42,792 nt of DNA from Methylobacter sp. GTDB lineage: Bacteria; Pseudomonadota; Gammaproteobacteria; Methylococcales; Methylomonadaceae. Where the stretch lies: positions 1 through 42,792 of the forward strand of contig JAUXXQ010000077.1 of NCBI GenBank assembly GCA_030684815.1. Direction: 5' to 3'. The number at the start of each line of letters is the position of its first letter. Positions within the stretch are counted from its first letter, which is position 1. Positions 1 through 15,222 of the stretch are shown here, one piece after another. The notes under the pieces are model-generated. The model was not told where the DNA came from. It made no database searches and saw nothing but the letters and a program-made list of their open reading frames with translations. Both the position numbers and the translations under genes were made by a program.

Positions 1-137
1 TAACAACGATGCTTTAGCATCATTATCCTTTCAGGTAACCTCGTCGTTTACGGCGAGGCAATCCACCGGCCTCCATCTGTCGATGGATTGTCGTAAGACA
101 AGTCATTTGGCAGATGAGGTCGAATGTGGATTGAAAC
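1..137 (+). ncRNA. HEARO / IscB omega-RNA-like structured RNA, copy A
   Basis: Three consecutive hairpins are visible: one around GATGCTTTAGCATC, one with arms CTCGTCG and CGGCGAG around a TTTA loop, and a longer one closed by CATCTG and CAGATG. The tract ends in GAATGTGGATTGAAAC. The same layout and much of the sequence recur at 8557-8678. In the second hairpin a G-C pair here is a C-G pair in the other copy, which supports an RNA fold. The GGTAACC, CCACCGG and GTGG-TTGAAAC blocks resemble the HEARO RNA that serves as omega-RNA of IscB nucleases; this is from memory and unchecked. No iscB lies downstream, so this would be an orphan copy. Its 5' end may be cut by the window edge. It lies antisense and 23 bp beyond the stop of the histidine kinase gene. 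Confidence 0.58.
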
Positions 138-160
138 ATTAATTTAACTTCTGACGACTG

Positions 161-1201
161 TTAGCCGTTTTCCCCATCGGAGGGATTATTCGCCAAGGGC
201 AAAAACACCTTGAATTCCGTTCCCGAATGACCGCCGGCAACCCGGCTTTGCACGTCTATGAGCCCTCCCAATTGGGTGACAATGCCGTACACCACGGAAA
301 GCCCCAGCCCACTGCCTTTGTTGGGTGCTTTGGTGGTAAAAAAAGGGTCGAATATCCGTTCCTGCACCTCAGGGGGCATACCGTGCCCGCTATCGATAAC
401 CGTCAGGCAAATGCCCACCTGCGCACTGTCGCCGAACGTGGCGAAATCAAGGCCAACGGCGACCACGCCACGATGGCCCATGGCATCGGCAGCATTGATG
501 CACAAGTTCATCACAATCTGTTGCAGCTGTCCGGGATCGGCCATCACCGTCACCCGCCCGATGCCGGTCTGAAAACGGATGTCCAAGCCCCCCTTATAAG
601 AGGCGCTCAACAGCGCCAATGTTTCCTGTATTTGTGCTACTACCTCCACCGCGACAGGCTTGACCGGGCTTTGCCTGGCAAATGTCAACATTCTGCTAAC
701 AAGGTCGCGGGCACGGAAACTGGCAGCCAACACATGGTTAATGCTATGTTTCCCGGAAGACCCCTCCGCCAGCTCATCCCCTGCCATTTCTGCAAAACCG
801 ATGATGCTGCCCAACAAATTATTGAAATCGTGGGCGATGCCCGCCGCGAGCGTGCCAACCGCTTCCAGTTTGTGCGACTGCGCCAGGCGGGAAGTGACCA
901 ACTCCTGATACTGGCGTTCCATTTGCTCGCGGAAAGCCAAGCCATAGGCCATGGACATTTCCATTAACGGCCTAGTCAAACGGTCGGCCACTTGCGCGAA
1001 ACTTAATGAAGGGTGAGTTTGGGAAAACCTGACCACCGCTTCATGATGAATATGCGTCACCTCATCCGGCGGCACCTTTTGATCGACCAAGGCCCGACCC
1101 AACTCAAACGCCTCAGCCAAATAGACTTCAATGGCATAGGCATCATCGGCAAAGGCCACCTGTTGCAGAATCTGAAAGTAGCGTTCTACATCCTGTTTCA
1201 T
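161..1201 (-). CDS. Histidine kinase with RsbU-type N-terminal domain
   Basis: A soluble 346-residue sensor kinase with no membrane segment. Residues 1-95 resemble the N-terminal domain of RsbU, the part that binds RsbT: VPPDEV at 43-48 followed by an IHHEA helix, then MAYGLAFRE near 84-92. The kinase core follows, with the phospho-accepting histidine at H124 in AGIAHDFNNLLG, the N box INAADAM, and ATP-lid boxes DSGHGM, DPFFTTK and GSGLGLS. There is no receiver domain. It is the last gene of the stressosome part of the operon, 17 bp after the RsbX-like gene. I infer that RsbT released from the stressosome regulates this kinase, which would then signal to a response regulator, perhaps one of the CheY proteins of the same operon. 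The kinase call is firm; the RsbT link rests on N-terminal similarity and position. Confidence 0.9.
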   Translation of the reverse strand: MKQDVERYFQILQQVAFADDAYAIEVYLAEAFELGRALVDQKVPPDEVTHIHHEAVVRFSQTHPSLSFAQVADRLTRPLMEMSMAYGLAFREQMERQYQELVTSRLAQSHKLEAVGTLAAGIAHDFNNLLGSIIGFAEMAGDELAEGSSGKHSINHVLAASFRARDLVSRMLTFARQSPVKPVAVEVVAQIQETLALLSASYKGGLDIRFQTGIGRVTVMADPGQLQQIVMNLCINAADAMGHRGVVAVGLDFATFGDSAQVGICLTVIDSGHGMPPEVQERIFDPFFTTKAPNKGSGLGLSVVYGIVTQLGGLIDVQSRVAGGHSGTEFKVFLPLANNPSDGENG

Positions 1202-1218: not shown

Positions 1219-1803
1219 TTAAATCTCATGACGGTAAATCAACACCGAGGCGTCATCATCGCCGCGTGCACAGTAGTCCAGTATCGCTTGCGCCTGCTCT
1301 TGCGCAGATACGCCGGGCTGGTCAAAAAACGCCCGCAATACCGGAAATTGGTCCAACCCGTCGGAAAACATCGCCAAAATATTTCCCGGAGCAAGCACCC
1401 GCGCTTCCGGAGCCAGCTTTTGATAGCCCGCGCCGACAATGCCGCGCCCGCCATCAAGCCTGATGTCTTTGCTGCCGCACAGCAGCAGAACCCGGATATT
1501 GCCCACCGTGCAAACAGTCATCAGACCGGTGGCCGGTTCGATAATAGCGACGGCCAACGCCACTCCGCGCGTATCCCGCAATACAGTGTTGCACTCGGCA
1601 AACAGGTCTTCGCAAGTCCAGTCCAAGTGATTAGCAATGCAAGCCAAGGCGGCTTCGGAAGCATAAGCAGCCTCCGGCCCATGACCCAGGCCGTCAGCCA
1701 CAGCCAATACAATGCGCCCGCCGGAGCGCCACCAGCCGCAACTGTCGCCGCAAACCGTTTCGCCCGCAAGAGGACGCGTCGCATAACCAGCCGTTACAGC
1801 CAT
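1219..1803 (-). CDS. rsbX: RsbX-like PP2C-family serine phosphatase
   Basis: A 194-residue protein with the PP2C/SpoIIE fold signatures: GDS near residue 19, ADGLGHG near 36-42, a central CTVGNIRVLL strand, MFSDGLDQ and a C-terminal GDDDASV metal-binding segment. The length is close to Bacillus RsbX (about 200 residues) and there is no sensor domain. In stressosome modules RsbX removes phosphate from RsbR and RsbS and so resets the complex. Its start overlaps the end of the upstream RsbT-like gene by 10 bp, which implies coupled translation. It lies directly after the R-S-T-T genes, the canonical position for rsbX. Confidence 0.88.
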   Translation of the reverse strand: MAVTAGYATRPLAGETVCGDSCGWWRSGGRIVLAVADGLGHGPEAAYASEAALACIANHLDWTCEDLFAECNTVLRDTRGVALAVAIIEPATGLMTVCTVGNIRVLLLCGSKDIRLDGGRGIVGAGYQKLAPEARVLAPGNILAMFSDGLDQFPVLRAFFDQPGVSAQEQAQAILDYCARGDDDASVLIYRHEI

Positions 1804-2183
1804 TTGCGCGCCCTCACCACCGTGCCCTGGCCGGGTTGACTGTCAATATCCATCTCATCCATCAACCGCTGCACGCCGGGCAGACCGCAGCCCAAACCGC
1901 CTGCGGTGCTGTAGCCGTCCTGCAGAGCCTTCTCTATATCGGCAATGCCGGGGCCATGATCGCTGACCACCAGCTCCAGACCGGGACGATCCGTCAATGC
2001 AGAGACTTCAAACATACCGCCGTCGGCATGAATAAACACATTGGCGGCCAATTCCGAGGCGGCGGTAGCAATGTAATAAGATTGCACACTGGAAAACCCT
2101 AGCACCGATGCCATTAGCTTGGCTTGGCGTGCGGCTTCGGCAATGTTAAATTCAGCGGCCACATAGACACTTATTTTGTTCAT
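1794..2183 (-). CDS. rsbT: RsbT-like serine/threonine kinase, second paralogue
   Basis: A 129-residue GHKL-fold kinase of the anti-sigma regulatory family. The N box is ELAANVFIHADGG, followed by SDHGPGI and the ATP-lid segment STAGGLGCGLPG, all typical of RsbT, the switch kinase that phosphorylates RsbS and RsbR and is then freed to activate its output partner. I chose the ATG at 2183 because GAAGGAAGGT lies directly upstream; a TTG at 2195 would add four residues and overlap the preceding gene. It is the second of two adjacent RsbT-like genes. The two share the same motifs but differ through the N-terminal half, so this is not a recent duplication. Confidence 0.88.
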   Translation of the reverse strand: MNKISVYVAAEFNIAEAARQAKLMASVLGFSSVQSYYIATAASELAANVFIHADGGMFEVSALTDRPGLELVVSDHGPGIADIEKALQDGYSTAGGLGCGLPGVQRLMDEMDIDSQPGQGTVVRARKWL

Positions 2184-2191
2184 ACCTTCCT

Positions 2192-2611
2192 TCAAGATCG
2201 TTTTCTGACTAAGGCAATGCTGACGCGGGTAAGCCCCGGCTCCGACTCGATAGCAAATTCGTCCATCAATCTTCGCGTTCCCGGCAACCCAGCACCCAAT
2301 CCGCCGCCGGTGCTGTAACCATCCTTCATGGCTTTATCGATGTTATCGATACCGGCACCGTGATCCTCAACCAGAATGCCCAGCCGCATTTCATTGGCAT
2401 CGGACAAATCGGCAATCTCGCAAAAGCCGTCGTCCCCGTATTGCACCACATTGCGCGCCAACTCTGATACCGCTGTCGCCAAACGCGTCTGATCGGCAAG
2501 GCCGAAGCCAATCCGTCCCGCCACTTGCCGGGCAACACCGCGTGCCCGCACAATATCCGAAGCATCGAGAATCGGCATCCGTTCAGATGCGTTTGTCGGC
2601 TGCGTTGTCAT
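2192..2611 (-). CDS. rsbT: RsbT-like serine/threonine kinase, first paralogue
   Basis: A 139-residue GHKL-fold kinase with N box ELARNVVQYGDDG, EDHGAGI and lid segment STGGGLGAGLPG, ending in the family's LMDEF-I-SEPG region. The start ATG overlaps the stop of the RsbS gene as ATGA and has a strong GGGGGAGGG ribosome site. By family knowledge it phosphorylates RsbS and RsbR in the stressosome. Having two RsbT-like kinases behind one RsbS is unusual. They may drive different outputs, or one may have taken an RsbW-like role. I cannot tell from sequence which one binds the RsbU-like kinase downstream. Confidence 0.88.
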   Translation of the reverse strand: MTTQPTNASERMPILDASDIVRARGVARQVAGRIGFGLADQTRLATAVSELARNVVQYGDDGFCEIADLSDANEMRLGILVEDHGAGIDNIDKAMKDGYSTGGGLGAGLPGTRRLMDEFAIESEPGLTRVSIALVRKRS

Positions 2612-2997
2612 CCCTCCCCCTCAATCATAGTTGCATCGCCGCGCATCCCAATCCGCTCTTTGATTATTTCCAGCCCTTGATCGAGATTGAATGTGCAATC
2701 GACACCGATCAGATCCCGCCCCATTTCCACCAGGGTCATCGCGACATAAGGCTGGACGCCGCATATAACGACTTCGGCTCCCAACAGCCGCGCCATGCCT
2801 GCGGTATCGTTGATGACACGCGCCATGAACGAATCGACCACTTCCAGCGAGGTAATATCAATGACGATGCCCAACGCTTCCATTTCAGCAATCTTGTTAA
2901 CCAGATCGTTTTGGAACTGCATCGCATCGGCATCGGTGAGGTCGACCTGGATGGAACTTAGTAGAATCTTGCCCAAGCGTAAAATAGGGATTTTCAC
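2608..2997 (-). CDS. rsbS: RsbS-like single-STAS stressosome scaffold
   Basis: A 129-residue STAS-domain protein. It starts with PILRLGKILLSS, has ITSLEVVDSFMARVI in the position of the phosphorylated serine of RsbS, and VVICGVQPYVAMTL as the later conserved strand and helix. RsbS builds the stressosome core with RsbR and holds RsbT until it is phosphorylated. The start is GTG, overlapping the RsbR stop as GTGA, with GGCGGAG seven bases upstream. There is no N-terminal sensor extension, which separates it from the RsbR-type gene just upstream. Confidence 0.9.
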   Translation of the reverse strand: MKIPILRLGKILLSSIQVDLTDADAMQFQNDLVNKIAEMEALGIVIDITSLEVVDSFMARVINDTAGMARLLGAEVVICGVQPYVAMTLVEMGRDLIGVDCTFNLDQGLEIIKERIGMRGDATMIEGEG

Positions 2998-3869
2998 TTG
3001 TGTACTCCGCCAGTGGACTCAATACGGCGGCCGACCAGCTGCAAAGCCTCGGCCAACCCGGCCCGCAAGGTTGCGCGGCTGATCACGTTGGCAAAGCTGA
3101 TACCCAACTTGGTCAATGTCTGCGCGCCTTCCGGGCTGATACCGGTCATGACGATGCGGGAACCCAGCAGCTGCGCCGCATCAATCGTTTTCATGATATG
3201 CCAGGCGACGCTGGTGTCGAATACCGGCACCCCGGTCACATCGATCAGCGTCACGCTGGCTTCGTATTTGGTGATCGATTCCAGCAAACGTTCGGTTAAC
3301 TGGCGGGCGCGGACTGTGTCGATTACGCCGATCAGCGGTAGCAGCAGCACATTGTTCCAAAGCAGAATCACTGGCGTGGACAGCTCCACCAACGACAGGC
3401 TCTGCTGGGCAATGACCCGTTCCCGCGTTTCGACAAACGCTTCGAAGGTCAGCAGGGACAAGCGGTCGAGCACACCGTCCACCGCCCGTAGACAGAGGGT
3501 GAGGCTGGCCGGGGTTTCATTCAAGGTGCTCACCAGATGTTGGGTCAGCACATTTTTCAGCGCAATGACGTATTGCGCCGTGTCCGCCGGTTTAAAGCCT
3601 TTTTTGGCGCGGTCGGCACTCAGTTCTCGGGCAATCTCGCCGAGTGCGCTGTTTGCGCCAATATCCGGCGGCGTTTCGCCGCTATGCTCGGAAAAGAGTT
3701 TGGCAAGCTCCTTGAGCAGGGCGTCGGCCTGCCGCCGTAATTCATCCTCGTTGACCAACCCAGGATACATGCGCATCCAAACGCGCAGCACTTCATTCAT
3801 CCATTCCGAACTGATCGCGGCTCGCTGCTGCAACAGAGTAACAATGGGGGCAAGGGAATTCGTTGTCAT
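2994..3869 (-). CDS. rsbR: RsbR-like stressosome sensor (N-terminal sensor plus STAS)
   Basis: About 291 residues. The first 150 form an all-helical domain that looks like the RsbR sensor class, without recognisable PAS or haem-binding features. The rest is a STAS domain with IDVTGVPVFDTSVAWHI, where the DT corresponds to an RsbT phosphorylation site, and TGISPEGAQTLTKLGI, carrying the second conserved threonine of RsbR. I prefer the ATG at 3869; a TTG at 3899 would overlap the preceding receptor gene as TTGA and add ten residues, and neither has a strong ribosome site. It is the first stressosome gene and directly follows the membrane receptor gene, tying the two systems to one transcript. 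Confidence 0.87.
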   Translation of the reverse strand: MTTNSLAPIVTLLQQRAAISSEWMNEVLRVWMRMYPGLVNEDELRRQADALLKELAKLFSEHSGETPPDIGANSALGEIARELSADRAKKGFKPADTAQYVIALKNVLTQHLVSTLNETPASLTLCLRAVDGVLDRLSLLTFEAFVETRERVIAQQSLSLVELSTPVILLWNNVLLLPLIGVIDTVRARQLTERLLESITKYEASVTLIDVTGVPVFDTSVAWHIMKTIDAAQLLGSRIVMTGISPEGAQTLTKLGISFANVISRATLRAGLAEALQLVGRRIESTGGVHK

Positions 3870-3895: not shown

Positions 3896-5185
3896 TCAAA
3901 ATAGTTCAAATTGCGGCAGGCCGTCAGCCTCTGCCTCGTCGCCATCGCCTGCCATGCCGTGGCGCGCTTCTTCCGCCTGATAGTCCTCCAGCAGACGGTG
4001 CATTTTTTCCGGCACGTCGGCCAAACCGCTATCAGCTTCAATTAACGTTCGGGACAGCTCAACGAACAAGTCGTTACGGCTCGCCGTTGCAAATCCGATA
4101 CGTTCAATACGTTGCCGCACCACATCCTGGAATTGTATCTGCCCGAGAATTTCAGCGATCTCTGTCGCCAGACGGGTGTTGTGCTCAGTTACCACGCCGA
4201 ACAACGTTTTGTAATACTGGCGCATGTCCTCATAGTTTTCCTGAAGGCTGCGGATAGACTCGACCATCTTGGCCGCATCACGCACCGACTCCGCCAGAAA
4301 GTTAAATTTGAGGCCGTTTTGCATGGCATCTTGGGCACTCGCCAGCCCTTCTTCGATCATCGCGGCGGTCTTGTCGGAGCGCTCCGAAAGCTTACGCACT
4401 TCGGCAGCCACCACCGAAATACCGCGTCCGAACTTACCGGCGTGCGCCGCTTCAATTGACGCATTGATAGCCAACAGATTGGTCTGCCGACTGATTGATT
4501 TGATGTCCTCAACCAGCTTCCCCAGTTCATCGATCTCTTTGCCTGCCTCGCGTATGATCGCCATATCCTGATGGATCCGCTCGGGCAGCCCACGCACAAA
4601 GTTGCCGATTTCAGAAATGAACGTGACGCTCTCGCCGATGACCGTTTCCATGTCGCCAGCCGTCGAGTGGGAACTGTGCAGATAGGACACCAGCGTATTG
4701 GCGGCATCATTGAGCGTACGCACTTCGGTGATCAACATGATTGCAGCGCTTTCGGTCTCCTCCATCACCTTTTTCAGCTGAATATCCATCGCTTCATCGA
4801 GGCACAAGTGCCTCTCCACTACATCAGCCACTACCGCAATACCGGATTGATAGTCATCGGTCTGCGTTGGCCAGCTGCTTTCAAGCGCCTCATTTCCCTT
4901 AGGTGCATCATCAATGGCCTCGTCAAGGTGCTGCGGTTTCTGCTTTAAACCGGCTATCCGCATCAGGCTGGCGTCGCAGGCTATCAGGATCAACGCGGCC
5001 GCCGCCAAAATCGCAATATCCTTGCGATTGCCCAACAACTGGTCCAGATAGCCCTGACACAGCGTCGCCGCCACGCCAACCACGGCCAACATCGCCAAGG
5101 CCGCATACGTAACCCATCGAACATCTTTACCGGTTATGACCGGCAGATCGGTTGCTTCGCTGCCGACCTTATTTTTTGGCCACAT
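3896..5185 (-). CDS. Membrane methyl-accepting chemotaxis receptor, short form
   Basis: A receptor of about 430 residues with two hydrophobic segments near residues 24-48 and 55-80, separated by a very short loop, so it has almost no periplasmic sensor. There is no clear HAMP domain. The signalling hairpin tip is SRQTNLLAINASIEAAHAG, near residue 235, followed by VVAAEVRKLSERS. A C-terminal helix carries IQFQDVVRQRIERI. The start is ATG 5185 or the adjacent GTG 5188. It probably senses a membrane or cytoplasmic cue, or serves as a signalling partner of the stressosome genes that overlap it downstream. The CheY gene lies just upstream. Confidence 0.88.
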   Translation of the reverse strand: MWPKNKVGSEATDLPVITGKDVRWVTYAALAMLAVVGVAATLCQGYLDQLLGNRKDIAILAAAALILIACDASLMRIAGLKQKPQHLDEAIDDAPKGNEALESSWPTQTDDYQSGIAVVADVVERHLCLDEAMDIQLKKVMEETESAAIMLITEVRTLNDAANTLVSYLHSSHSTAGDMETVIGESVTFISEIGNFVRGLPERIHQDMAIIREAGKEIDELGKLVEDIKSISRQTNLLAINASIEAAHAGKFGRGISVVAAEVRKLSERSDKTAAMIEEGLASAQDAMQNGLKFNFLAESVRDAAKMVESIRSLQENYEDMRQYYKTLFGVVTEHNTRLATEIAEILGQIQFQDVVRQRIERIGFATASRNDLFVELSRTLIEADSGLADVPEKMHRLLEDYQAEEARHGMAGDGDEAEADGLPQFELF

Positions 5186-5191
5186 CACAGG

Positions 5192-5566
5192 CTAAGCCCC
5201 CGGCAGCACTTGCTTGATGACTTTCAGCAAATCCGCCCCGCCCACCGGTTTGACCAGCCAGCCGGTGGCGCCCAACTTCTTGGCTTCGTCGCGCCGGGCT
5301 TGCTGGCTTTCGGTGGTCAGCACCAAAATAGGCATAAACCGGAACCCCGTTAGTGCCCGCGTATTCTGGATCAACTCAATGCCATTCATGTTGGGCATGT
5401 TGATATCGGTGATTATCAGGTCAGGTTTAACGCCGCCTTTCAGCTTGGTTAGCGCCTTGACGCCGTCCTCGGCGGTCTCGACAGTAAAACCGGCGATTTC
5501 CAGGTTGCTTTTTACGCTCATCAGCATGGTTGCCGAGTCGTCCACAATCAGTATAGTTTTTGCCAT
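5192..5566 (-). CDS. cheY: CheY-like single-domain response regulator
   Basis: A 124-residue stand-alone receiver. The acidic pair is D9-D10, the phosphorylation site D54 lies in ITDINMPNMNG, and the switch residues are in VLTTES and LVKPVGG. No output domain is attached, so signalling is by protein binding, to the motor or another partner. It sits between the small STAS-like gene and the membrane receptor gene. CheA upstream is the expected phosphodonor; the RsbU-like histidine kinase at the operon end is a second candidate donor (inference). Confidence 0.93.
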   Translation of the reverse strand: MAKTILIVDDSATMLMSVKSNLEIAGFTVETAEDGVKALTKLKGGVKPDLIITDINMPNMNGIELIQNTRALTGFRFMPILVLTTESQQARRDEAKKLGATGWLVKPVGGADLLKVIKQVLPGA

Positions 5567-5582
5567 AACACTCTCTTTGTTG

Positions 5583-5816
5583 CTAGTTCAGGGCCGACTC
5601 CAGCCAGACGCGCAGATTGGCGTCCTTGGGCCAGGCGGCGATTACAGGTTTTACCGCCATCAAAACTTGCAGGTTGGCAGCATGCAGATGCTGGCAATCG
5701 GCGAGATCCACGCGGCTTTTCGGGTTTTTGATAAACCATTCCAGCAGGCCCTCGGCCTCTTCGACACCAACGGTATCGCGGAACAGCGCCAATTTTTTCT
5801 GGTACGTAATTGCCAT
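5583..5816 (-). CDS. Small STAS-like protein of chemosensory clusters
   Basis: A 77-residue protein with a STAS-like core, VDLADCQHLHAANLQVLMA near residues 36-54, followed by PKDANLRVWLESALN. It resembles shortened STAS-like proteins encoded beside cheA in some chemosensory operons; I do not know an assigned function. Its ATG overlaps the last base of the cheA stop codon (TAATG), so translation is coupled to CheA. It may act as a small adaptor, or link the chemosensory proteins to the STAS proteins RsbR and RsbS downstream; the latter is speculation. Confidence 0.75.
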   Translation of the reverse strand: MAITYQKKLALFRDTVGVEEAEGLLEWFIKNPKSRVDLADCQHLHAANLQVLMAVKPVIAAWPKDANLRVWLESALN

Positions 5817-8500
5817 TACACAAGCTCCCTTGGATTCAACACCATCAGCACAGAACCGTCGCCCAGCAGCGCCGAGCCGGAATAACCGCCCAGCCCGCCG
5901 ATGATGCCGGCCATCGGTTTGAGGATGATGTCCACGGTTTCGCGAAAATCGTCGACCACAATGCCGACGTGTTCTTCGTGGACGCGCACCACCAGCGTCG
6001 CCAGTTCGTCGTCATCATTGGACAGCGGTTCCGCACCGATCGCCAGCAAGTCATTGAGCGCCAACAACGGCACAATGCGGCCGCGTAACACCGTGGTCTG
6101 GCGTTTTTTGATGGTGCGGATTACGCTTCTCGATACGCGGACGGTTTCCACGACCATATCCATCGGCACACCGAAAATCTGCTTGTCGGACTCGACGATC
6201 ATCACACTGGTCACCGCCATCGACAGCGGCAACGACAGGCGAATCAGCGTGCCCTTGCCCAGCTCGCTTTCCAGGCTGACCGTACCGTTGACTTTTTCTA
6301 CCGCACTGCGCACCACGTCCATGCCGACGCCGCGGCCGGACAGGTCGGAAATCACCTCCGCCGTGGAGAACCCGGCGGCGAACACCAGGTTGACCGCTTC
6401 CTGGTCGGACAGGCGTTCCATCGTAACCTCGTCGATGATGCCTTTTTCGTAAGCCTTGCGTTTGATGATAATAGGATCAATGCCCTTGCCGTCATCGGAA
6501 ATTTCAATATGCACCCGGTCTGCTTCCTGCGTGGCGCGAATGGTAAGCCGTCCGGCAGGCGGCTTACCTGCCGCGCGCCGCACTTCTGGAGTTTCAATGC
6601 CGTGGTCGAGGCTGTTCCTCACAATGTGGATCAACGGATCGGCCAACGCTTCGACAATGTTCTTGTCGGCCTCGGTATTTTCCCCTTCCAGCACCAGGTT
6701 CACTTCTTTGCCCAGTTTTCTGGAAGTATCGCGCACCAGCCGAGGGAAACGCTGGAACACAAACGACATCGGCATCATCCGTACCTGCATGATGGCATCC
6801 TGCATTTCCTCGGCGATACGGTTAATGACCGCATACTGGGTCTTAATCTCGCGGCCCAGTTCGCGCACTCCGTATTGCGTCTCGGCCCGGCTGGCAAGGT
6901 ACGGCAAGCTGTTCTTGGCCACTACCATTTCGCCGATCAAGCCCATCAGGTTGTCGATTTTGTCCTGATCGACTTTGAGCGTCTTGGGCCCGACATAGGC
7001 ATCTTCCGCACGACGGCCAAACTTGTTATCCGGCTCCACATCGATCAGCGCATTACGTATCGGCGTTGGAGCTGCCTCTGCTTCTTCCGCCGCCTCCGGC
7101 CCGACCGTTGCAGACAAATCAAGCGGCGCGTGCGCATCCAACCAAGCTAACAACGGCGCCGCCTCAACGTTATCCAGAGCCTCTGCCAGCGCCGCTTCCA
7201 ACGCCGGCAATGCCTCGATCCGCCCGGCACGGCGGTGACAGGCTGCCAGCGCCGCCGCCGCCGCATTCAGCCTGCCGGACAACCATGCGTCGCTATCCGC
7301 TAAGCCGAGAATTTCACGTTGCGCTTGCAGGATGTCGGCAAAAGCCCGCGCATCGGCGTCGGAAAACATCTCGCCGACAAGCCCAGAACCAGGGCCTGCA
7401 ACCGCTTCAACTGCTGTTGCGGTTTCCGGCGTCGTCCAGACCGGCAACGTCAAGCTAGCCAGAGACCCTATCAGGGTGCGCTGCGCATGGCGGTTGCCGG
7501 GCTCCAGTTCAAGCACCAACAGCAGCCAGCGCAAGCCCGAAGCCAGCCACAGGTCGGGGGAGGACAGCTCCAGCATGGTGCGGGCAACGGATTCCAACCC
7601 GGCCATGTCACCGGAGTCCAGGCGGCGCAGCGCATCGGTGACAAAATCGCCGTACACTGCCCCGCCGTTCGGATCGCCATGGGGCAGGGCCAGCACGATA
7701 GGCGGCAATGGGACGATGCGCAGTTGTTCCGGGGTATAACGGAACAGTTCGTACAATTCCTCGGGCGCTGCCGTGGTCAGTGTGTCAAATATAAGGTTGC
7801 AATGATAGGCATCCAGTTCGGCCGACGCAGTCCACAGCTCACGAGGCCGTACCGACTGCCAGACGATGTCAGGAATCTGCCGCACTTGGTGAAAAGGGTC
7901 TTCCCCCTTAAAAAAACACTCGTCCTCGGGCGTGTACTCGACAAACAGCAAGGTGTCTAAGGTGTCTCCGGCCAGCGCCTGACGATATAACGCCATGCGC
8001 TGCTGTTCCGGCAATTCGGCAAGCCGTGGCAATTCCGGCATATTCGGCGCCGATGAGGACTGAAAAGCTTCGGCAACCGAGGCTTTAGCGTTACCGCCGT
8101 CCGCTATGGCGGTAACGCCAATCAACTGCCGTAGCGATTCGGCCAGACGTAACGCATTTTGCCCATGATCCGAACCGTTCCCGCCACCGTTCGACTCGAT
8201 TTCATCCACCAGCAAATTGACGAAATCCATCGCATCCAACAGCCGGTCGGTCAGCTCCTGGGAGTATCCGACGCGGCCATCGCGCACCGCATCCAACAAG
8301 TCTTCACCGGCATGGAGCACACGCGTCATCTCGGGGAACTCGAACAGACCGCTGTTACCCTTCAGGGTATGTACCAGACGGAACAGTTCATTCATGACCA
8401 CCGTACTGTTGGGATCGTTTTCCAGTTGCATCAGCTTCTCGGCGATGCCTTGTAGAAAGTCCCGCGCTTCCGCGAGAAATTGTTCCAATAATGGATTCAT
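5816..8500 (-). CDS. cheA: Chemotaxis histidine kinase CheA
   Basis: About 894 residues. The N-terminal Hpt domain has its phospho-histidine in RLVHTLKGNSG, near residue 44. A long middle region to about residue 480 carries no clear P2 domain and is much longer than in enteric CheA. It is followed by the dimerisation helices (LMGLIGEMVVAKNSL), the ATPase with HIVRNSLDHGIE, DDGKGID and GRGVGMDVV, and a CheW-like C-terminal domain. It passes phosphate to the CheY and CheB proteins of this operon. I chose ATG 8500, preceded by AAGGA at good spacing, over a TTG at 8503. The 121-124 bp upstream hold a hairpin and the second omega-RNA-like copy. Confidence 0.95.
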   Translation of the reverse strand: MNPLLEQFLAEARDFLQGIAEKLMQLENDPNSTVVMNELFRLVHTLKGNSGLFEFPEMTRVLHAGEDLLDAVRDGRVGYSQELTDRLLDAMDFVNLLVDEIESNGGGNGSDHGQNALRLAESLRQLIGVTAIADGGNAKASVAEAFQSSSAPNMPELPRLAELPEQQRMALYRQALAGDTLDTLLFVEYTPEDECFFKGEDPFHQVRQIPDIVWQSVRPRELWTASAELDAYHCNLIFDTLTTAAPEELYELFRYTPEQLRIVPLPPIVLALPHGDPNGGAVYGDFVTDALRRLDSGDMAGLESVARTMLELSSPDLWLASGLRWLLLVLELEPGNRHAQRTLIGSLASLTLPVWTTPETATAVEAVAGPGSGLVGEMFSDADARAFADILQAQREILGLADSDAWLSGRLNAAAAALAACHRRAGRIEALPALEAALAEALDNVEAAPLLAWLDAHAPLDLSATVGPEAAEEAEAAPTPIRNALIDVEPDNKFGRRAEDAYVGPKTLKVDQDKIDNLMGLIGEMVVAKNSLPYLASRAETQYGVRELGREIKTQYAVINRIAEEMQDAIMQVRMMPMSFVFQRFPRLVRDTSRKLGKEVNLVLEGENTEADKNIVEALADPLIHIVRNSLDHGIETPEVRRAAGKPPAGRLTIRATQEADRVHIEISDDGKGIDPIIIKRKAYEKGIIDEVTMERLSDQEAVNLVFAAGFSTAEVISDLSGRGVGMDVVRSAVEKVNGTVSLESELGKGTLIRLSLPLSMAVTSVMIVESDKQIFGVPMDMVVETVRVSRSVIRTIKKRQTTVLRGRIVPLLALNDLLAIGAEPLSNDDDELATLVVRVHEEHVGIVVDDFRETVDIILKPMAGIIGGLGGYSGSALLGDGSVLMVLNPRELV

Positions 8501-8525
8501 CAAATTTCCTTGCTAGTTTGAAACC

Positions 8526-8556: not shown

Positions 8557-8678
8557 GACAACGATGTAGTCGCATCGTTGTCCTCTGGTAACCTCCTCGT
8601 TTACGGGGAGCCAAGCCACCGGCCTCATCTGTCGATGGCTTTGTCATTCGACAGATGAGGCCGAATGTGGGTTGAAAC
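8557..8678 (+). ncRNA. HEARO / IscB omega-RNA-like structured RNA, copy B
   Basis: Three hairpins in series: a perfect 10-bp stem GACAACGATG/CATCGTTGTC, a 7-bp stem CTCCTCG/CGGGGAG with a TTTA loop, and a stem CCTCATCTGTCGA/TCGACAGATGAGG. It contains AAGCCACCGG and ends in GAATGTGGGTTGAAAC. It aligns along its length with 1-137, including a compensatory G-C to C-G change in the second stem. Both copies are on the plus strand, antisense to the operon. No nuclease gene follows. Its 3' part forms the end of the CheY-like gene on the other strand, so it was inserted there. Confidence 0.62.
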
Positions 8679-9035
8679 CCCGAGCAACAGGCGAATGTAG
8701 GTCAGCAAGCCTTCCGGTTTCACCGGCTTGATCAGATAGAGATTGGCACCGGAGCGATAGGCCCGTTGCCGGTCATTGCTCTCGGCTTCAGTAGACACCA
8801 TGATCGCCGGAACCTGGGTGATGTCCTGGCTGCGTATTTCCCTAAGGAATCCGTAACCATCCAGCTTAGGCATGTTGATATCGACCACATACAAGTCGAA
8901 AGGCGTCTGCAAGGCTTTTTCCATGGCCTCAATCCCGTTGACGGCCTCATCCACCTCATATCCCGCCGATTCGAGTATATTGCGGTGATATAGGCGTACC
9001 GTGGCGGCGTCGTCCACGACGAGGATATGTTTCAT
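8625..9035 (-). CDS. CheY-like response regulator with C-terminus from an inserted RNA element
   Basis: A 136-residue single receiver with acidic pair D8-D9, phosphorylation site D52 in VVDINMPKLDG, and the conserved lysine in LIKPVKP. I chose ATG 9035 because it overlaps the CheR stop as ATGA; an upstream in-frame start would add 33 residues that are antisense to cheR and look non-coding. The receiver ends at TYIRLLLG, after 119 residues. The following 17 residues and the stop codon (8625-8678) are read from the reverse strand of the omega-RNA-like element, so the original end of the gene was replaced. The receiver core seems complete and the protein may well work. It lies between cheR and cheA. 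Confidence 0.9.
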   Translation of the reverse strand: MKHILVVDDAATVRLYHRNILESAGYEVDEAVNGIEAMEKALQTPFDLYVVDINMPKLDGYGFLREIRSQDITQVPAIMVSTEAESNDRQRAYRSGANLYLIKPVKPEGLLTYIRLLLGVSTHIRPHLSNDKAIDR

Positions 9036-9874
9036 AAGTCCCCCAGGGGTTTTTGATACACGATCGCTTCCGGGAACTTGCGCACCCGGAACAAAGAAGA
9101 AATACGGCTCATCGATTCCGAATGGCCGAGACAAACGAACCCGCCCGGATTCAAGGCGTCGAAAAAAGTCTCCGCCGCCTGGCGGCGCGACATGTCATCG
9201 TAATAAATCAGCAGGTTGCGGCAAAAAATCACGTCGAATCCGCGATAAGAACGCACATCCGCCGCTTCCATCAGGTTGACACGGGTAAACTCGACCGCAT
9301 CGCGCATGTCATCGCTGATTTGGTAACCACCGGCGCTGGGCACAAAATATTTTTGCAGCAGCCTCGGCGGCAAGTGTTGCACTGAGCGCGACGAATAATG
9401 GCCGCGCCGCGCCCGCGTAATAATGTCGGTATCGATATCCGACGAGATGATTTCCACATCCCATTTTTCGATGCCCGGCCAGTGTTCCAACAGGTAAATC
9501 ACGATCGAATAAGCCTCTTCCCCGGAAGAAGAAGGAACCGACCAGATACGGATTGGCGAGTTGTCTTTTTTACGCCGGACGATTTCGCCCAACATCGAAT
9601 TGACCAGACACTGGAACTGATATTCCTCGCGAAAAAAATAGGTCTCGTTGACGGTCATCAGGTTAACCAGCGTTTGCAGCTCGTCCCCCTTGGCGTCAAA
9701 GCGCAGCATCATGAAATAGTTGCGAAAATGCTCCGAATCGGTCGCTTCGATACGTTCAACCAGCCGTTTGTCGACAAAATAGCGCTTAGATGCCTCGAAC
9801 TGGATACCGGTTTTGCGATAAAAATATTCCCGGAATTTCCGGAAATCTTCCTCGCTGATAGTGATCTCTGTCAT
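9032..9874 (-). CDS. cheR: Chemotaxis receptor glutamate methyltransferase CheR
   Basis: A 280-residue protein with a helical N-terminal domain and a SAM-dependent methyltransferase domain. Seen are TVNETYFFREEYQF, the SAM loop IRIWSVPSSSGEEAYS, SSDIDTDIITRARRG, and VIFCRNLLIYYD. The enzyme adds methyl groups to receptor glutamates and opposes CheB. The usual GCSTGEE in the SAM loop reads SVPSSSGEE here, a common sort of variation. The start at 9874 has AAGGCG just upstream and follows the HEAT-repeat gene by 5 bp. Confidence 0.95.
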   Translation of the reverse strand: MTEITISEEDFRKFREYFYRKTGIQFEASKRYFVDKRLVERIEATDSEHFRNYFMMLRFDAKGDELQTLVNLMTVNETYFFREEYQFQCLVNSMLGEIVRRKKDNSPIRIWSVPSSSGEEAYSIVIYLLEHWPGIEKWDVEIISSDIDTDIITRARRGHYSSRSVQHLPPRLLQKYFVPSAGGYQISDDMRDAVEFTRVNLMEAADVRSYRGFDVIFCRNLLIYYDDMSRRQAAETFFDALNPGGFVCLGHSESMSRISSLFRVRKFPEAIVYQKPLGDL

Positions 9875-9879
9875 TCGCC

Positions 9880-10503
9880 TTAGCTCTCGTCGATACGTTT
9901 AATGGCCAAGTCGGCGGCAAAGCCGATATAGGGCTCTTCGGCAAAACGCGCTTTGAGCTGTTCCAGCCCCAAACGGGAAGCCGTGGTTCCGACCTCGCCC
10001 AGCAAATCCAGCGCCGTGGCGCAAACATTGACGTGTGGGTCTTGTTCGATGACCTTGATCAGCCATTCCTCAACCTGCGGATGGCATAGCGATTCGAGAA
10101 TGTTCACCGCAAAAATGCGCACATCGGGGTCATGGTCTGCCAGCAGTTCGCTCATAATCGGCGCAACTTCGTCCGGCAACTCCTTCATCGCTTCGATGAC
10201 TTCATTACGCAAAGCCGCATCCTCGCTACGCAGGCATTCCACCAGTTCCGTCATGGTCGCAGGATTGCCTAAACGGATCAGCGTCGTCAGTATGGTTTCG
10301 CGTACACTGGGATCGCCCTCGTATTTGAGCCGTCTCACCAGCACCTCGACGGACTCGGGAAACTCCGCCAAATCCCGTGCCGCCCAACGTCTGGCGGTAG
10401 AATCATCCGCCTCCAACTCGGCCACCAGCCCGTTAAAGTCGCGAGGACGCTGGCGCTCGTCGATATTAATTAATTGAGGGCTTTGTTGTTTAATAATAGG
10501 CAT
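9880..10503 (-). CDS. HEAT-repeat protein of the chemosensory operon
   Basis: A helical-repeat protein of about 207 residues. Repeats of the HEAT/PBS-lyase type are visible, such as STARRWAARDLAEF, DPSVRETILTTLIRLG, DAALRNEVIEAMKELP, DPDVRIFAVNILESL and DPHVNVCATALDLLGEVG. Such repeats form a curved protein-binding scaffold and no enzyme motif is seen. I chose ATG 10503, with GGAAAGGAAC upstream; the frame extends further upstream, but that part overlaps the end of cheB and looks non-coding. Placed between cheB and cheR, it probably organises or modulates the adaptation enzymes, which is inferred from position only. Confidence 0.87.
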   Translation of the reverse strand: MPIIKQQSPQLINIDERQRPRDFNGLVAELEADDSTARRWAARDLAEFPESVEVLVRRLKYEGDPSVRETILTTLIRLGNPATMTELVECLRSEDAALRNEVIEAMKELPDEVAPIMSELLADHDPDVRIFAVNILESLCHPQVEEWLIKVIEQDPHVNVCATALDLLGEVGTTASRLGLEQLKARFAEEPYIGFAADLAIKRIDES

Positions 10504-10523
10504 ATCTGTTCCTTTCCCAGCCG

Positions 10524-11579
10524 TTACCTGGCCCAGGCGACAATTTGGTTGGCAATCTTGTTCGCGTGCAGCACCACTGATGCACCGCCGCGCTTGATCA
10601 ACTCCGCAGGCATGCCGAAGACGACACAAGACTCTTCCGATTCGGCAATGGTGCGGCCGCCTTTCTTTTTGATTTCGGCGAACGCATCGGCGCCGTCGTA
10701 ACCCATGCCGGTCAGCATCACGCCGATGACGCGCGCCGGATCGTAATTCTCAAGCACCGAACGCCCCATCAGCTCCACCGAGGGATGCCACAAAAACTCG
10801 GATGACTCCGGCCTCGCCAGCACGGTCATCTTACCCGCACGCGATGCGACCACCATGTCCGCCCCGCCCTTACCCACGTAGATGGTGCCGCGTTCCAGCG
10901 GCATCGGCCGCGAGGCCTCGACCACCTGTAAATGACACAGATCGTTCATGCGGTTGGCGAAAGGCAGCGTGAAGCTGCCCGGCATGTGTTGGGCCACCAA
11001 TACGGGCCAAGGGAAATCTGCCGGCAACAGCGGCAGGATGTCCTCCAATGTGCGCGGCCCTCCGGTGGAAACGCCGATGATAACCAACCCCTCACCGCCA
11101 ATGCCGCTACGCACCAAAGCCGGCGGGCGTTCAGGCCGACTGCGCTCGGCGCGGATACGCGAAGTCAGTCCGCGTGCGGTTTTCAGCTTGGCTCGGGCTG
11201 CCGCCTTAACCTTGCTGATCAGGTCATGACTGATATCATTGATCGAAAGCGAAATGGTGCCACCGGGCTTGCCGACGTAATCCACCGCCCCCAACGCCAG
11301 CGCCTCGAAAGTCGCCAGCGCGCCTTTTTCGGTCAGCGACGACACCATCACCACTGCAACCGGCCGTTCCGCCATCAGTAATGACAAGGCGGTCAGTCCG
11401 TCCATTTCCGGCATGTTGATGTCCAACGTAACCACGTCCGGCTTAAACGCGATGTTTTCCTCCACCGCTTCTTTGCCGTTGCGCGCCAAACGGATCTCGA
11501 ACCCCCCTTCCGCTTCAAACAGCTGGACAAGCTGACGGCGCATCAGCGCCGAATCGTCAACAATTAACAGTTTGATCAT
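10524..11579 (-). CDS. cheB: Chemotaxis methylesterase/deamidase CheB
   Basis: A protein of about 351 residues with an N-terminal receiver (D8-D9 pair, phosphorylation site D53 in LDINMPEMDG) and a C-terminal methylesterase domain with the catalytic serine in IGVSTGGP, histidine in VAQHMPGSF and aspartate in MLTGMGYDGADAF. CheA phosphorylates the receiver, which relieves inhibition of the esterase. The ATG at 11579 gives the normal receiver N-terminus (MIKLLIVDDS) and has AAAGGTAA upstream; an in-frame start at 11600 would add seven residues. Confidence 0.95.
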   Translation of the reverse strand: MIKLLIVDDSALMRRQLVQLFEAEGGFEIRLARNGKEAVEENIAFKPDVVTLDINMPEMDGLTALSLLMAERPVAVVMVSSLTEKGALATFEALALGAVDYVGKPGGTISLSINDISHDLISKVKAAARAKLKTARGLTSRIRAERSRPERPPALVRSGIGGEGLVIIGVSTGGPRTLEDILPLLPADFPWPVLVAQHMPGSFTLPFANRMNDLCHLQVVEASRPMPLERGTIYVGKGGADMVVASRAGKMTVLARPESSEFLWHPSVELMGRSVLENYDPARVIGVMLTGMGYDGADAFAEIKKKGGRTIAESEESCVVFGMPAELIKRGGASVVLHANKIANQIVAWAR

Positions 11580-11624
11580 AGAATGGTTACCTTTCACCAT
11601 AAAAGCTTAGTCGTGCCAGTTGCC

Positions 11625-11709
11625 CTGGGAACGCCGAACCCCAGCTCGGCTTATTCATCTTCAACTTTCCGGTTGTTTGTCGTGCCAAGCTGGGGCTTGG
11701 CGTTCCCAG
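11625..11709. repeat. Long imperfect inverted repeat between cheB and cheW genes
   Basis: The arms CTGGGAACGCCGAACCCCAG and CTGGGGCTTGGCGTTCCCAG are separated by about 45 bp. The transcript would fold into a long hairpin within the operon, 45 bp before cheB. There is no T-run, so it is not a classical terminator. Related palindromes occur at 15.76-16.12 kb, so it is probably a dispersed intergenic repeat. It could lower expression of the downstream part of the operon or protect mRNA ends. Confidence 0.6.
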
Positions 11710-11711
11710 CC

Positions 11712-13283
11712 TTAAGACGCCAGCGTTGCCAAGCTTTTCAAGTCCTGGCTTTCGATCAGTTGCGACGGGTCGATCAGCTGGATCAGACGCTTTTGCTTCT
11801 CAAGGTTCGCGACACGGCCAATCAGCCGGCTCTGCTCACCAGACAGGCTCGGTGCGACCTCAATGGCAGACTTCGGTATTTTCAGCACCTCGGTCACCGA
11901 ATCGACGATAAAACCGGTACGCACGCCGTCGAACAAAAACACCATGATGCGCTGCCTGTCGTTGCGTTCCGTCGTTGCCAAGCCCAAACGCAAGCGCTGG
12001 TCGATAACCGGCAGCACCGCCCCGCGCAAGTTGATGACACCCTCCACGAAAGCCGGAGCCCTAGGCACATGGGTCAGCTCCTCGGGTACGCGCACGATTT
12101 CCTGCACGCTGTCGATAGACACCCCAAATTCCTCCTTGTCCAGACGGAACACCACCATCTGTTCGTCGTCTTCAACACGGCCGCCATCCTGTGCTTCGAC
12201 AGCATCTTGTCCTATTGTTTCTTCGCGTAAGTTATCCACGGTACTCAATGCCTCCTTGATGGCGGAATGACGGAACATATTGCCGACGGAAATGATGGAC
12301 ACCAACCGCTTGCCCTCGTCTAAGCGGCAAATCTCGGTAATATCGGACAAGTCGCCGTCGCGGGCGAGCAGGCCGGGCATGTTATCGACATAAACCTTGG
12401 GGACGCGCAACACCTCATTGACGCTATCCATCACTACGCCGACGGACGCATTGCCGAGAGCGACCACGACGATGCGGCTATGCTCATCGGCATCCTGCGT
12501 CGGCAAGCCGAACATGCGCCGCAGGCTGACCAGGGGCAACAGCCGGTTCCTGAGCGTCATTACCCCCAGCACATGCGATTCCGAGTGCGGCACATGAACG
12601 ATATGCTCCGGCACCTGCACGATTTCCTGTACGTCATCAATGGAAATGGCGTATTCCTGCCCGGCAGCGGCAAAACTGACCAATTGCAGTTCGTCGCTGG
12701 ACTTTTCCACTTCCTCTTCGGCCTTACGGTTGCCGACCAAATGATCACCGGCAGTCGAGCGGGACAGCGCCGCAATGTCGGCGAACTCGGCAGCAATCAG
12801 CTTGGCAAAATCCAGCACCATGATCATCTCGTGGCCGCCGACATCCTTGAGCAGGCCGGACAGCAATTCGGTATCCACGGTGCCGCGAATCGAGTCGACA
12901 TCATCGATTTTTGAGGGTTCGACACCGACCACGCTGGCGACTCTATCCACCACGAAACCCAGCGGCTGGCCGAGATCGATGACCACGGCGCGGGTGGAGT
13001 CGTCGTATTCCTGGTCGCCAAAACCAAAAATGCGCCGCAATGAAATAATCGGCAACACCTTGCCGCGCAGGTTGGCTAGGCCTTCCAGGGTATTTGGCGC
13101 CAGCGGCACCCGTACCACTTCGGGTACCCGGATGATTTCCTGAACCGGGGTCATATCGACGGCAAACACCTCGTCACCGGCAATAAAGGTGACGAACTGA
13201 CGGATATTGGATTCCTGCAGGTCGAGGGTTACCCCATCGACGCTCGGCACATCCTCCCGTTGTTCCAGAGTTTCGGTAGTCAT
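11712..13283 (-). CDS. cheW: Triple CheW-domain coupling protein
   Basis: A 523-residue protein with three CheW domains, roughly residues 25-170, 200-345 and 375-520. Each shows the pattern of a strand with VFAVDM-, EYAISI- or EFGVSI-, then VQEI(I/V)(R/Q)VPE, a LANLRGKVLPIISLRR- or VINLRGAVLPVID-type loop, and a GFVVD-, GVVMD- or GFIVD-type strand. CheW couples receptors to CheA. Three domains in one chain could bridge several receptor and CheA units. The start has GGAGATTGTT upstream, and the gene follows the soluble receptor by 16 bp. No enzymatic domain is present. No single-domain CheW is seen in the window. Confidence 0.93.
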   Translation of the reverse strand: MTTETLEQREDVPSVDGVTLDLQESNIRQFVTFIAGDEVFAVDMTPVQEIIRVPEVVRVPLAPNTLEGLANLRGKVLPIISLRRIFGFGDQEYDDSTRAVVIDLGQPLGFVVDRVASVVGVEPSKIDDVDSIRGTVDTELLSGLLKDVGGHEMIMVLDFAKLIAAEFADIAALSRSTAGDHLVGNRKAEEEVEKSSDELQLVSFAAAGQEYAISIDDVQEIVQVPEHIVHVPHSESHVLGVMTLRNRLLPLVSLRRMFGLPTQDADEHSRIVVVALGNASVGVVMDSVNEVLRVPKVYVDNMPGLLARDGDLSDITEICRLDEGKRLVSIISVGNMFRHSAIKEALSTVDNLREETIGQDAVEAQDGGRVEDDEQMVVFRLDKEEFGVSIDSVQEIVRVPEELTHVPRAPAFVEGVINLRGAVLPVIDQRLRLGLATTERNDRQRIMVFLFDGVRTGFIVDSVTEVLKIPKSAIEVAPSLSGEQSRLIGRVANLEKQKRLIQLIDPSQLIESQDLKSLATLAS

Positions 13284-13299
13284 AACAATCTCCTAGAAA

Positions 13300-15222
13300 T
13301 CAAGCACTTTGCAGTTCGTCGGCCAGAGACGCAATCTCCTCGACAGCAGCGGCCAGTTCTTCGGCGCCTTGCGATTGTTGGGTGGCGGCAGCGCCGGCCT
13401 CGGCAGCCGCTTTTTCCGCTTCCTGCGCGGCGGCGGAAATTTGGTCCACACCGGTTTTCACCTGGGCGATGGCCGCAGCAATCTCGTTGGAAGCGTTCAG
13501 GATTTCAACAGAGCCTTCTTCGACTACAGCAATATCGGTTTCGATCAATACCAAATTTTCGGTCGTCGCCTTGGCTTTTTCCACTTCGCTCAGCGCCGCA
13601 GCCTGAATCTCCTCTAAGTCGCGGGCAACTGTGGCGACCTGGTCTTGTACCGCTTTAACCAGATCCTTAATGCGGTCGGCATTCTCGGCCGAATCGTGCG
13701 CCAGGTTGCGGATATCGGTCGCCACCACGACGAAACCTTTGCCGAATTCGCCGGCGCGTGCGGCTTCGATAGAGCCGTTGACGGCCAGCATATTGGTCTG
13801 GATGGAAACGGTGGAGATGGCATCGACGATCTTGTCGATACGGCGCGACACCAGCTCCAACTCCTTGACTTGCCTGATACTCTCACGTGTAGAGTCTGCC
13901 GAACCGGAAACACCGGCAATCAGCGTATCAATAGACGTTTTGTTGACAGCCAGCAACCCCTTGATGGCCGCAACTTTTTCAGCGCCGACTGTGGCACGAT
14001 CCTGAGCCACTTCGATACCCTTTTCGATCTGGGCAATGGCAGCTGCGGACTCTTCGGTGGCTGCCGCCTGCGCTTGGGCGCCTCTGCGGATTTGTTCGAT
14101 AGCCGCCATAATCTGGGTACCGGAACGGTTGATTTCCTGCACGGCGGAAGACAGCTCCTCGGCGGCAGAGGCCACTTCTTCGGCGCTCTTGGCCACGTCG
14201 GTGGAATTTTTCAGGTCTTCGGCCAACTCGGACAGATTTTGCGCCGCCTGTTCGCACTCGGACAGTGCCTGCGCCTGTTCAGCCACCGTTTTACCGGCTT
14301 CCTCGGCAGCAGTGGATTGTTCTTCCGCAGCTGCGGCAATCGTTTCCGAGGCTTGCATGGTCTGTTGCGCCGCAGTGCTGGACTGCACTGCGCCGCTGGC
14401 GATTTCTCGGATACCGCCGACAATATCGATTACATCACCACGGATCTGGTCCAGTTGCGTGGTGATGACCCTGCCGTTTTCGATTTCTCCCTCAATGTTT
14501 TTTGCCGAAGTGTTAATGCCATCGGCGATGACTTTGACTTCCTGCTGGATTTGTCCGACCAGCGCCTGTATCTGTTGCGCGCTCTTTTCGGAGGTTTCGG
14601 CCAGGGTACGCACTTCGTCGGCCACCACGGCAAAGCCCTTGCCGTGCTGTCCGGCACGCGCCGCTTCAATCGCGGCATTGAGCGCCAGCAAGTTGGTCTG
14701 GTCGGCAATGCGCGCCACCGCTTTAACGATGTCGCCGATGTTGGCCGCCTGCTTTTCAAGCTCAACCACCCGTTCCACTGACGAAGACTGGCGTTGCGCT
14801 GCCACGCCGACATTATTCACCAAACCGGCAACTTCAGCGCTGGCTCTGAGCACCAAGGCTTGCATGACTTCGCCTTTAGCCTGACTAACTTCTGTATTTT
14901 GCAACTGACGGGCGATAGCAGCGCTTACCTGATTGACCGCTGCCAGCGATTCCTGGGCTGCGCCGGAGGCTTCTTCAGCACCGGTAGCAATCTGGTCGCC
15001 TGCACGCTTCAGTTCTTCGGAAGCGGAAGCCGCTTCGTTAATGCCGGAGGCCAGCTGGCCGGTTGCCGCAGCGATACGCTCTGCCGCCTGCTGTTGTTTT
15101 GCGAGGGTACGCGCTCTTTTACGCTGGGCATCCGCATCGCGTGCAGTCACGCTAGACGAATGGCCGCTTTCTGCCGCTGATGCGGAGGCGGTTCTGGTAT
15201 TGGTTTTTTTGACGATAGCCAT
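13300..15222 (-). CDS. Soluble chemoreceptor with two signalling tips
   Basis: A 640-residue protein without a signal peptide or membrane segment. Almost the whole length is predicted coiled coil rich in Ala, Glu and Gln. Two receptor hairpin tips are present: [20 protein letters not shown] near residue 175, and [20 protein letters not shown] near residue 478. Each is followed by a GKGF-VVA segment. Between and after them are repeated [14 protein letters not shown]- and [14 protein letters not shown]-type methylation-like heptads. No ligand domain is visible, so the input may come through another protein. The ribosome site AAAGGAGAAA lies eight bases before the ATG. It is the first gene of the operon and the likely partner of the triple CheW protein. 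Confidence 0.9.

Follow-up and report, generated by a model that had tools for sequence, protein, structure and literature searches.

The window analyzed here, positions 1 to 42,792 of contig JAUXXQ010000077.1 from a Methylobacter sp. (assembly GCA_030684815.1), carries a row of genes on one strand in which a chemotaxis (che) cluster is followed by a stressosome module and then by a histidine kinase with an RsbU-like N-terminal domain. We propose that this protein is a stressosome effector kinase: docking of RsbT on the RsbU_N domain would change kinase activity, and the phosphoryl group would pass mainly to an adjacent receiver, not primarily to CheY1 or CheY2, the CheY-like receivers of the che cluster. 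We put the probability of this reading at about 0.65. Its basis is the homology of the domains and the order of the genes, together with intact catalytic residues, purifying selection, and an adjacent receiver in relatives. The kinase open reading frame (ORF) lies on the minus strand at 161-1201, starts with ATG, and encodes 346 amino acids; the plus-strand reading of 161-1201 has stops in that frame. A different plus-strand ORF of 246 amino acids in the ORF list overlaps the kinase gene at 227-967. The protein is organized as follows.

161..1201, minus strand: RsbU_N-HisKA-HATPase_c histidine kinase, 346 amino acids (ORF, Pfam, alignment; no further input domain in Pfam)
902..1201, minus strand: RsbU_N domain, residues 1-100, presumed to serve RsbT docking and dimerization (Pfam, PDB profile, AlphaFold model)
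671..856, minus strand: HisKA phosphoacceptor domain, residues 116-177 (Pfam)
830..832, minus strand: presumed phosphoacceptor His124 in GIAHDFNN, invariant in 6/6 full-length alignment rows
191..538, minus strand: HATPase_c catalytic domain, residues 222-337 (Pfam)

A first-pass annotation of this DNA had described an RsbU-like N-terminus on a histidine kinase and suggested a profile search against RsbU_N as a check. That description is confirmed by Pfam RsbU_N (PF08673), by profile matches in the PDB, and by the HisKA and HATPase_c domains; the search gave a significant match rather than none. Against the whole protein, PF08673 matched residues 25-89 at 24.6 bits (E 2.8e-5), just below its curated cut-off of 25.5 bits, and against residues 1-121 it scored 27.6 bits (E 3.3e-6), above the cut-off. 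The kinase was the sole PF08673 match at E<=1 (27.5 bits) in a scan of the 4.29 Mb genome; 7 of the 14 control genomes in the same scan had a match at E<=1, and one passed the cut-off. With the single kinase protein as query, the RsbU N-domain chains returned by phmmer had E values from 9.8e-4 to 0.026. A profile built from eight N-termini, all of which matched RsbU_N at E<=0.1 (best 1.7e-6), retrieved four different RsbU sequences from the PDB at E 3.2e-10 to 1.2e-8; the sole other match, in a search to E 1, was a ribosomal protein (E 0.57). The motifs on which the annotation had relied align in the PDB profile alignment opposite IPPEEIISIHR and GYGMAYQEH of RsbU. Judged from these profile comparisons, residues 1-100 are a genuine RsbU_N domain, and the likeness to RsbU is homology, not chance.

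The HisKA and HATPase_c domains scored 34.1 bits (cut-off 26.9) and 81.8 bits (cut-off 26.4), respectively, in Pfam, and H124, N232, N236, D270, G272, G274, F287, G298, and G300, which we take to be the phosphoacceptor and ATP-site residues, are unchanged in all six full-length alignment rows. Unlike the RsbU phosphatase, the protein has no PP2C domain match in Pfam at E<=1. Compared with Methylobacter tundripaludum SV96, the ratio of nonsynonymous to synonymous substitution rates (dN/dS) is 0.08 for RsbU_N and 0.145 for the kinase part, so that both halves are under purifying selection; the corresponding values are 0.11 for RsbT1, 0.18 for RsbT2, 0.04 for RsbS, and 0.22 for RsbX.

An AlphaFold (AF2) model of residues 1-121 reached a predicted local distance difference test (pLDDT) score of 89.3 overall and 60 in the last block, with helices at 2-16, 21-40, and 45-62 followed by an unbroken helix, 68-120, that runs into the kinase dimerization region. 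The full-length model is weaker (pLDDT 72.7, with residues 110-117 below 50), and in it the 68-120 helix is broken at 110-111. Nine subfamily kinases, including that of the window, were compared for the distance at which the phosphoacceptor His follows the RsbU_N motif, counted from the motif's end: it is 34 residues in seven of the eight measured and 33 in L013, while the motif of L014 fell outside the pattern. Foldseek found no match to the N-terminal model at E<=0.001; nearly all of the 50 matches listed for the full model are histidine kinases. In VIA-align 2, designed bundles, KaiA C-terminal domains, and others ranked above RsbU. The predicted fold, compared with 1w53 and 2j6y, is compatible with RsbU_N but does not discriminate.

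The kinase gene starts 17 bp after RsbX, and no further gene follows before the contig ends. The row reads MCP1, triple CheW, CheB, HEAT protein, CheR, CheY1, CheA, CheY2, MCP2, RsbR, RsbS, RsbT1, RsbT2, RsbX, kinase, all on one strand (MCP, methyl-accepting chemotaxis protein). CheA, CheR, CheB, CheW, and MCP1 were named from sequence and from gene order in relatives, and the HEAT protein from Pfam.

1219..1803, minus strand: RsbX-like PP2C feedback phosphatase (SpoIIE/PP2C Pfam match; same place in relatives)
1794..2183, minus strand: RsbT2, second RsbT-like GHKL protein (HATPase_c_2, alignment)
2192..2611, minus strand: RsbT1, first RsbT-like GHKL protein (HATPase_c_2, alignment)
2608..2997, minus strand: RsbS, STAS protein (Pfam); Ser56 of VVDSFMARV is invariant in 9/9 rows
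2994..3869, minus strand: RsbR, RsbRD_N sensor part and STAS (Pfam)
3896..5188, minus strand: MCP2, MCP-like chemoreceptor adjoining the stressosome genes (Pfam)
5192..5566, minus strand: CheY2, CheY-like receiver of the che cluster, unlikely to be the kinase partner (Pfam, relatives)
5816..8503, minus strand: CheA (ORF, same place in relatives; named from sequence)
8625..9035, minus strand: CheY1, CheY-like receiver of the che cluster (Pfam, relatives)
9032..15222, minus strand: CheR, HEAT-repeat protein, CheB, triple CheW, and MCP1 (ORFs, order in relatives)

Pfam thus gives RsbRD_N plus STAS, STAS, GHKL, GHKL, and SpoIIE/PP2C, the order expected of an RsbRSTX module, and the fusion gene lies downstream of RsbX, as do those of the RsbU_N histidine kinases of stressosome operons. 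Neither RsbT1 nor RsbT2 matched an RsbT-specific model, and their solved relatives are SpoIIAB and RsbW; their putative identity as RsbT rests on homology and gene order.

The docking mechanism that we propose is taken from work on RsbU and RsbT of Bacillus subtilis (PMC12143880). RsbR and RsbS would hold the RsbT-like switch protein; upon stress, RsbT would phosphorylate RsbS and RsbR and be released. Once free, RsbT would bind the kinase dimer at its RsbU_N domains and the adjoining helix, order this helix, and shift the balance between autokinase and phosphatase activity in the HisKA-HATPase_c part. From there, phosphoryl transfer would be chiefly to the single-domain receiver whose gene comes next downstream, and not primarily to CheY1 or CheY2; RsbX would reset the switch. 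In this scheme we infer RsbT release, docking, the direction of the activity change, and phosphotransfer.

Evidence for the receiver comes from nine relatives of the kinase subfamily whose loci were viewed beyond the gene itself: L009 (M. tundripaludum SV96), L010 and L117 (Geobacteraceae), L013 (Methylicorpusculum), L014 (an Oxalobacteraceae metagenome-assembled genome), L109 (genome G288, same family), L011, L012, and L110. A single-domain receiver of one family directly follows the kinase in eight of the nine (L009, L010, L012, L013, L014, L109, L110, and L117); six of these receivers (L010, L012, L013, L109, L110, and L117) were scored against the L009 copy, at 47-77% identity, and the L014 receiver was identified in three-frame translation. 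The exception is L011, where the kinase frame ends early and the next gene encodes a longer protein with a receiver-like stretch. The count leaves aside L018, which has a broken kinase gene, and the other kinase types of L111-L116. The che-stressosome-kinase order recurs from CheA on in L009, from CheB in L013, from CheY1 in L014, and from MCP1 in L109. RsbR, RsbS, two RsbT genes, and RsbX occur with the kinase at one locus in L009, L010, L013, L014, L109, and L117, and with a single RsbT in L111 and L112. In the two Geobacteraceae loci the order is R-R-S-T-T-X-kinase-receiver, and apart from receiver-like matches these stretches contain no che gene. In L012 only pieces of RsbR (48 residues), RsbS (29), and RsbT1 (73) precede the kinase and receiver.

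In Methylomonas methanica (L018), the kinase match at L018:10001-10426 covers only query residues 206-338, and receiver and ParA genes still follow; a search of this genome for RsbU_N gave nothing at E<=0.001. A ParA-like ATPase is also encoded after the receiver in L009, L013, and L014, and between CheA and CheY2 in other lineages (L138:8240-9007, L141:8539-9294).

We considered whether the kinase instead feeds CheY1 and CheY2, or shares its receiver with CheA, so that stress would directly bias che output. Kinase, CheY1, and CheY2 do stand in the same row on the same strand. However, triple CheW was found at E<=1e-60 in 10 of the 369 genomes of the class scanned, and in three of the seven further triple-CheW genomes (L137, L138, and L141) the cluster is complete from MCP1 through MCP2, with CheY1, CheA, and CheY2 and with no Rsb or RsbU_N match in the whole cluster. 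L140 reaches an MCP2-like receptor, likewise without Rsb or RsbU_N matches, and is cut at the CheW end, with CheY2 not identified; the che clusters of L136, L139, and L142 end early at contig ends. None of these seven genomes has an RsbU_N match at E<=1e-4, a threshold at which 5/369 genomes of the class are positive. Since CheY1 and CheY2 occur with CheA in kinase-less clusters, this kinase is not needed as their donor, and we rejected them as its main acceptors. The first-pass annotation had regarded the CheY at 5192 and the regulator at 8625 as receivers wanting a dedicated donor apart from CheA, a view that the kinase-less CheA clusters and the kinase's own receiver in 8/9 relatives do not support. 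Its broader proposal, that RsbT switches a His-Asp phosphorelay, remains the best reading once the CheY acceptors are dropped, since a genuine RsbU_N domain sits on a kinase whose gene comes next after RsbX of an RsbRST row. Also speaking against the che alternative, kinase and receiver occur without che genes in the L010, L012, and L117 stretches; the Geobacteraceae pairs point to the kinase as donor, and both donors may be true.

Several observations weigh against a kinase that depends strictly on RsbT and has a receiver to itself. In genome G271, the L137 stretch breaks off in a receiver fragment, and the following stretch, L143, shows a receiver of the partner family (63% identity over 120 residues) and a ParA (54%). 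They stand approximately 5 kb past MCP2; in these stretches the interval between MCP2 and the receiver gave no match to Rsb proteins, RsbU_N, or the kinase, and two ORFs in it resemble an insertion sequence by eye.

L143:14960-16119: G271 partner-family receiver and ParA beyond the kinase-less che cluster

Two readings fit: loss of stressosome and kinase from this genome, or a receiver that is part of the che row as well and that CheA can serve. The G271 receiver without a kinase weakens the notion of a dedicated receiver, and for this reason we lowered the probability of the effector kinase reading and raised that of the che alternative, which we still consider unlikely. The partner receiver is not strictly tied to the kinase and may not be exclusive to it.

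The second observation concerns G238, which has the che cluster from triple CheW on plus kinase and receiver, with no RsbT or RsbS in the genome at E<=1e-6. That the che cluster here still has kinase and receiver joined to it though the stressosome genes are gone is in line with the che alternative, and that they are retained without a detectable RsbT or RsbS would also fit an RsbU_N domain that is a mere dimerization leftover of an ancestral fusion, with RsbT binding lost and the kinase under other control or constitutive. However, an RsbX C-terminal match lies just before the G238 kinase (44% identity over 93 residues, E 1.7e-12), by which the stressosome genes were apparently deleted later; we rejected G238 as a stressosome-free original state on the same ground. 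In a kinase tree, which drew long-branch warnings, the che-linked and the other subfamily kinases did not resolve from each other, so the order of gain and loss of che linkage cannot be read from it.

The residues at the presumed interface bear on the leftover explanation in both directions. RsbU residues E24, Y28, I74, and I78 are reported to contact RsbT (PMC12143880); on the RsbT side, R19, R23, and N24 are the contacts reported. With positions placed via the PDB profile alignment, the Glu24 equivalent is Glu in all 16 aligned RsbU_N sequences (a set that omits the L009 GGDEF-EAL, L011, L115 HD, and L116 GGDEF proteins), and Met, Ile, or Leu is found at the I74 position in 14/16 and at the I78 position in 15/16; the equivalent of Tyr28, a key contact, is Tyr in none of the 16, which favors the leftover explanation. 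The RsbT interface, if kept, has changed from that of RsbU. In the window lineage RsbT1, RsbT2, RsbX, and kinase remain together, all under purifying selection, which like the conserved Glu speaks against a mere dimerization leftover, a reading that we consider improbable.

A further alternative, that RsbT phosphorylates the kinase by a transient route instead of docking, follows a suggestion for D1 of Vibrio vulnificus, made in PMC9237108 for downstream proteins that lack RsbU_N. The kinase described here does carry RsbU_N, taken in the same source as a sign of RsbT targeting, and we regard this route as very improbable.

The proposed mechanism, which we find plausible, is in part already published, and RsbU_N kinases have close precedents. 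In a 2022 study, Heinz et al. (PMC9237108) describe RsbU_N-like N-termini on signaling proteins encoded downstream of RsbX in certain members of the alpha-, beta-, and gammaproteobacteria, as well as HisKA/REC output modules, and a gammaproteobacterial NreB (MBI3545564.1) was modeled in an eLife 2025 paper (PMC12143880); the fusion is thus of a known kind, already reported in print. Compared with the RsbU_N kinases of proteobacterial stressosome operons, the window has an RsbR with RsbRD_N, whereas the 2022 survey deals with globin-type RsbR; it also has two tandem RsbT-like genes and a row opening with a che cluster. The likeness to B. subtilis RsbU extends over the N-terminal domain and into the following helix (profile E 3e-10), with a PP2C phosphatase there, a histidine kinase here, and Tyr28 not retained. 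Moorella thermoacetica MtG (RsbU_N-GAF-GGDEF) similarly couples RsbT to another output through RsbU_N (PMC12143880), although that output is cyclic di-GMP (c-di-GMP). V. vulnificus RsbRSTX-D1-D2 also has two-component genes after the stressosome, but no RsbU_N and no RsbT-D1 interaction were detected there in PMC9237108. A CheY-like gene adjoins RsbRST in V. brasiliensis (PMC4976288). To these precedents the present analysis adds the joint che-stressosome row, the neighboring receiver, the occurrence of this docking domain on c-di-GMP enzymes, and a genome in which kinase and receiver outlasted the stressosome. Among the open-licence papers listed, judged by title and start of abstract, none describes the che-stressosome row. 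Counting the window's own genome, RsbU_N of this type occurs in 2/41 relatives (protein search), 5/369 genomes of a class sample, and 7/398 of a phylum sample, and is rare.

Other outputs are joined to RsbU_N in related loci, and c-di-GMP-type RsbU_N proteins adjoin the kinase in L009, L114, L115, and L116. SV96 (L009) has two extra genes between RsbX and kinase, a third RsbT-like gene and the following.

L009:7337-9592: RsbU_N-PAS-GGDEF-EAL protein of M. tundripaludum (Pfam, locus reading)

This protein, whose RsbU_N is the weakest scored singly (18.4 bits, below the cut-off), matches the kinase at 65% identity over 185 residues and has a weak HisKA phosphoacceptor remnant. L116 encodes RsbU_N-GGDEF (25.7 bits, barely above the cut-off) beside RsbU_N-PAS-HATPase_c-REC, and L114 and L115 encode RsbU_N-HD beside an RsbU_N kinase. 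In all four loci an RsbT match and an RsbU_N kinase lie in the stretch that encodes the alternative output, which is what module swaps around a switch-addressed docking module would look like. We tentatively suggest, with considerable doubt, that RsbU_N is an RsbT-addressed plug through which one stressosome drives several parallel outputs, here a phosphorelay and elsewhere also a c-di-GMP enzyme of the same row, and that in che-linked rows chemosensory array and stressosome form one sensing unit, whose downstream receiver would be shared by CheA and the kinase that RsbT switches. The effector kinase reading offers a concrete, testable route by which a stressosome lacking a sigma-B cascade could reach an output, and in SV96 the receiver can be named. 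The SV96 row also encodes the RsbU_N c-di-GMP protein, so this organism would permit a comparison of two outputs under one switch. Natural controls are available in G238, which has kinase and receiver but no stressosome, and in G271, which has the receiver but no kinase.

The partner receiver itself falls beyond the contig, which ends in a repeat.

1..160, no strand: genome-wide repeat at the contig end (nucleotide matches; in M. tundripaludum a copy separates the kinase gene from the receiver gene)

This intergenic repeat of approximately 140 bp has 34 matches in the genome including itself, at 72-100% identity, and no Rfam family matched in the window at gathering thresholds. In SV96 it lies between kinase and receiver (L009:11049-11194, 78% identity). 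No close receiver or ParA ortholog was found in the window's assembly, where the best matches reach 33% and 39%; contig C195 opens in the same repeat, with no receiver or kinase gene among the ORFs listed for the 4 kb at its start. The receiver is probably absent from the assembly, with true loss possible, and we presume that the organism has it.

Directly after CheA, the window encodes a small protein of approximately 80 amino acids (5586-5816, minus strand). A tblastn search with the L137 copy, covering the window, L009, L013, L014, L109, L110, L136, L138, L140, and L141, found it in 10/10 sequences at 43-77% identity, and the two copies scanned had no Pfam match at E<=0.001. A further copy of the contig-end repeat lies inside the row at 8558-8678, between CheA and CheY1.
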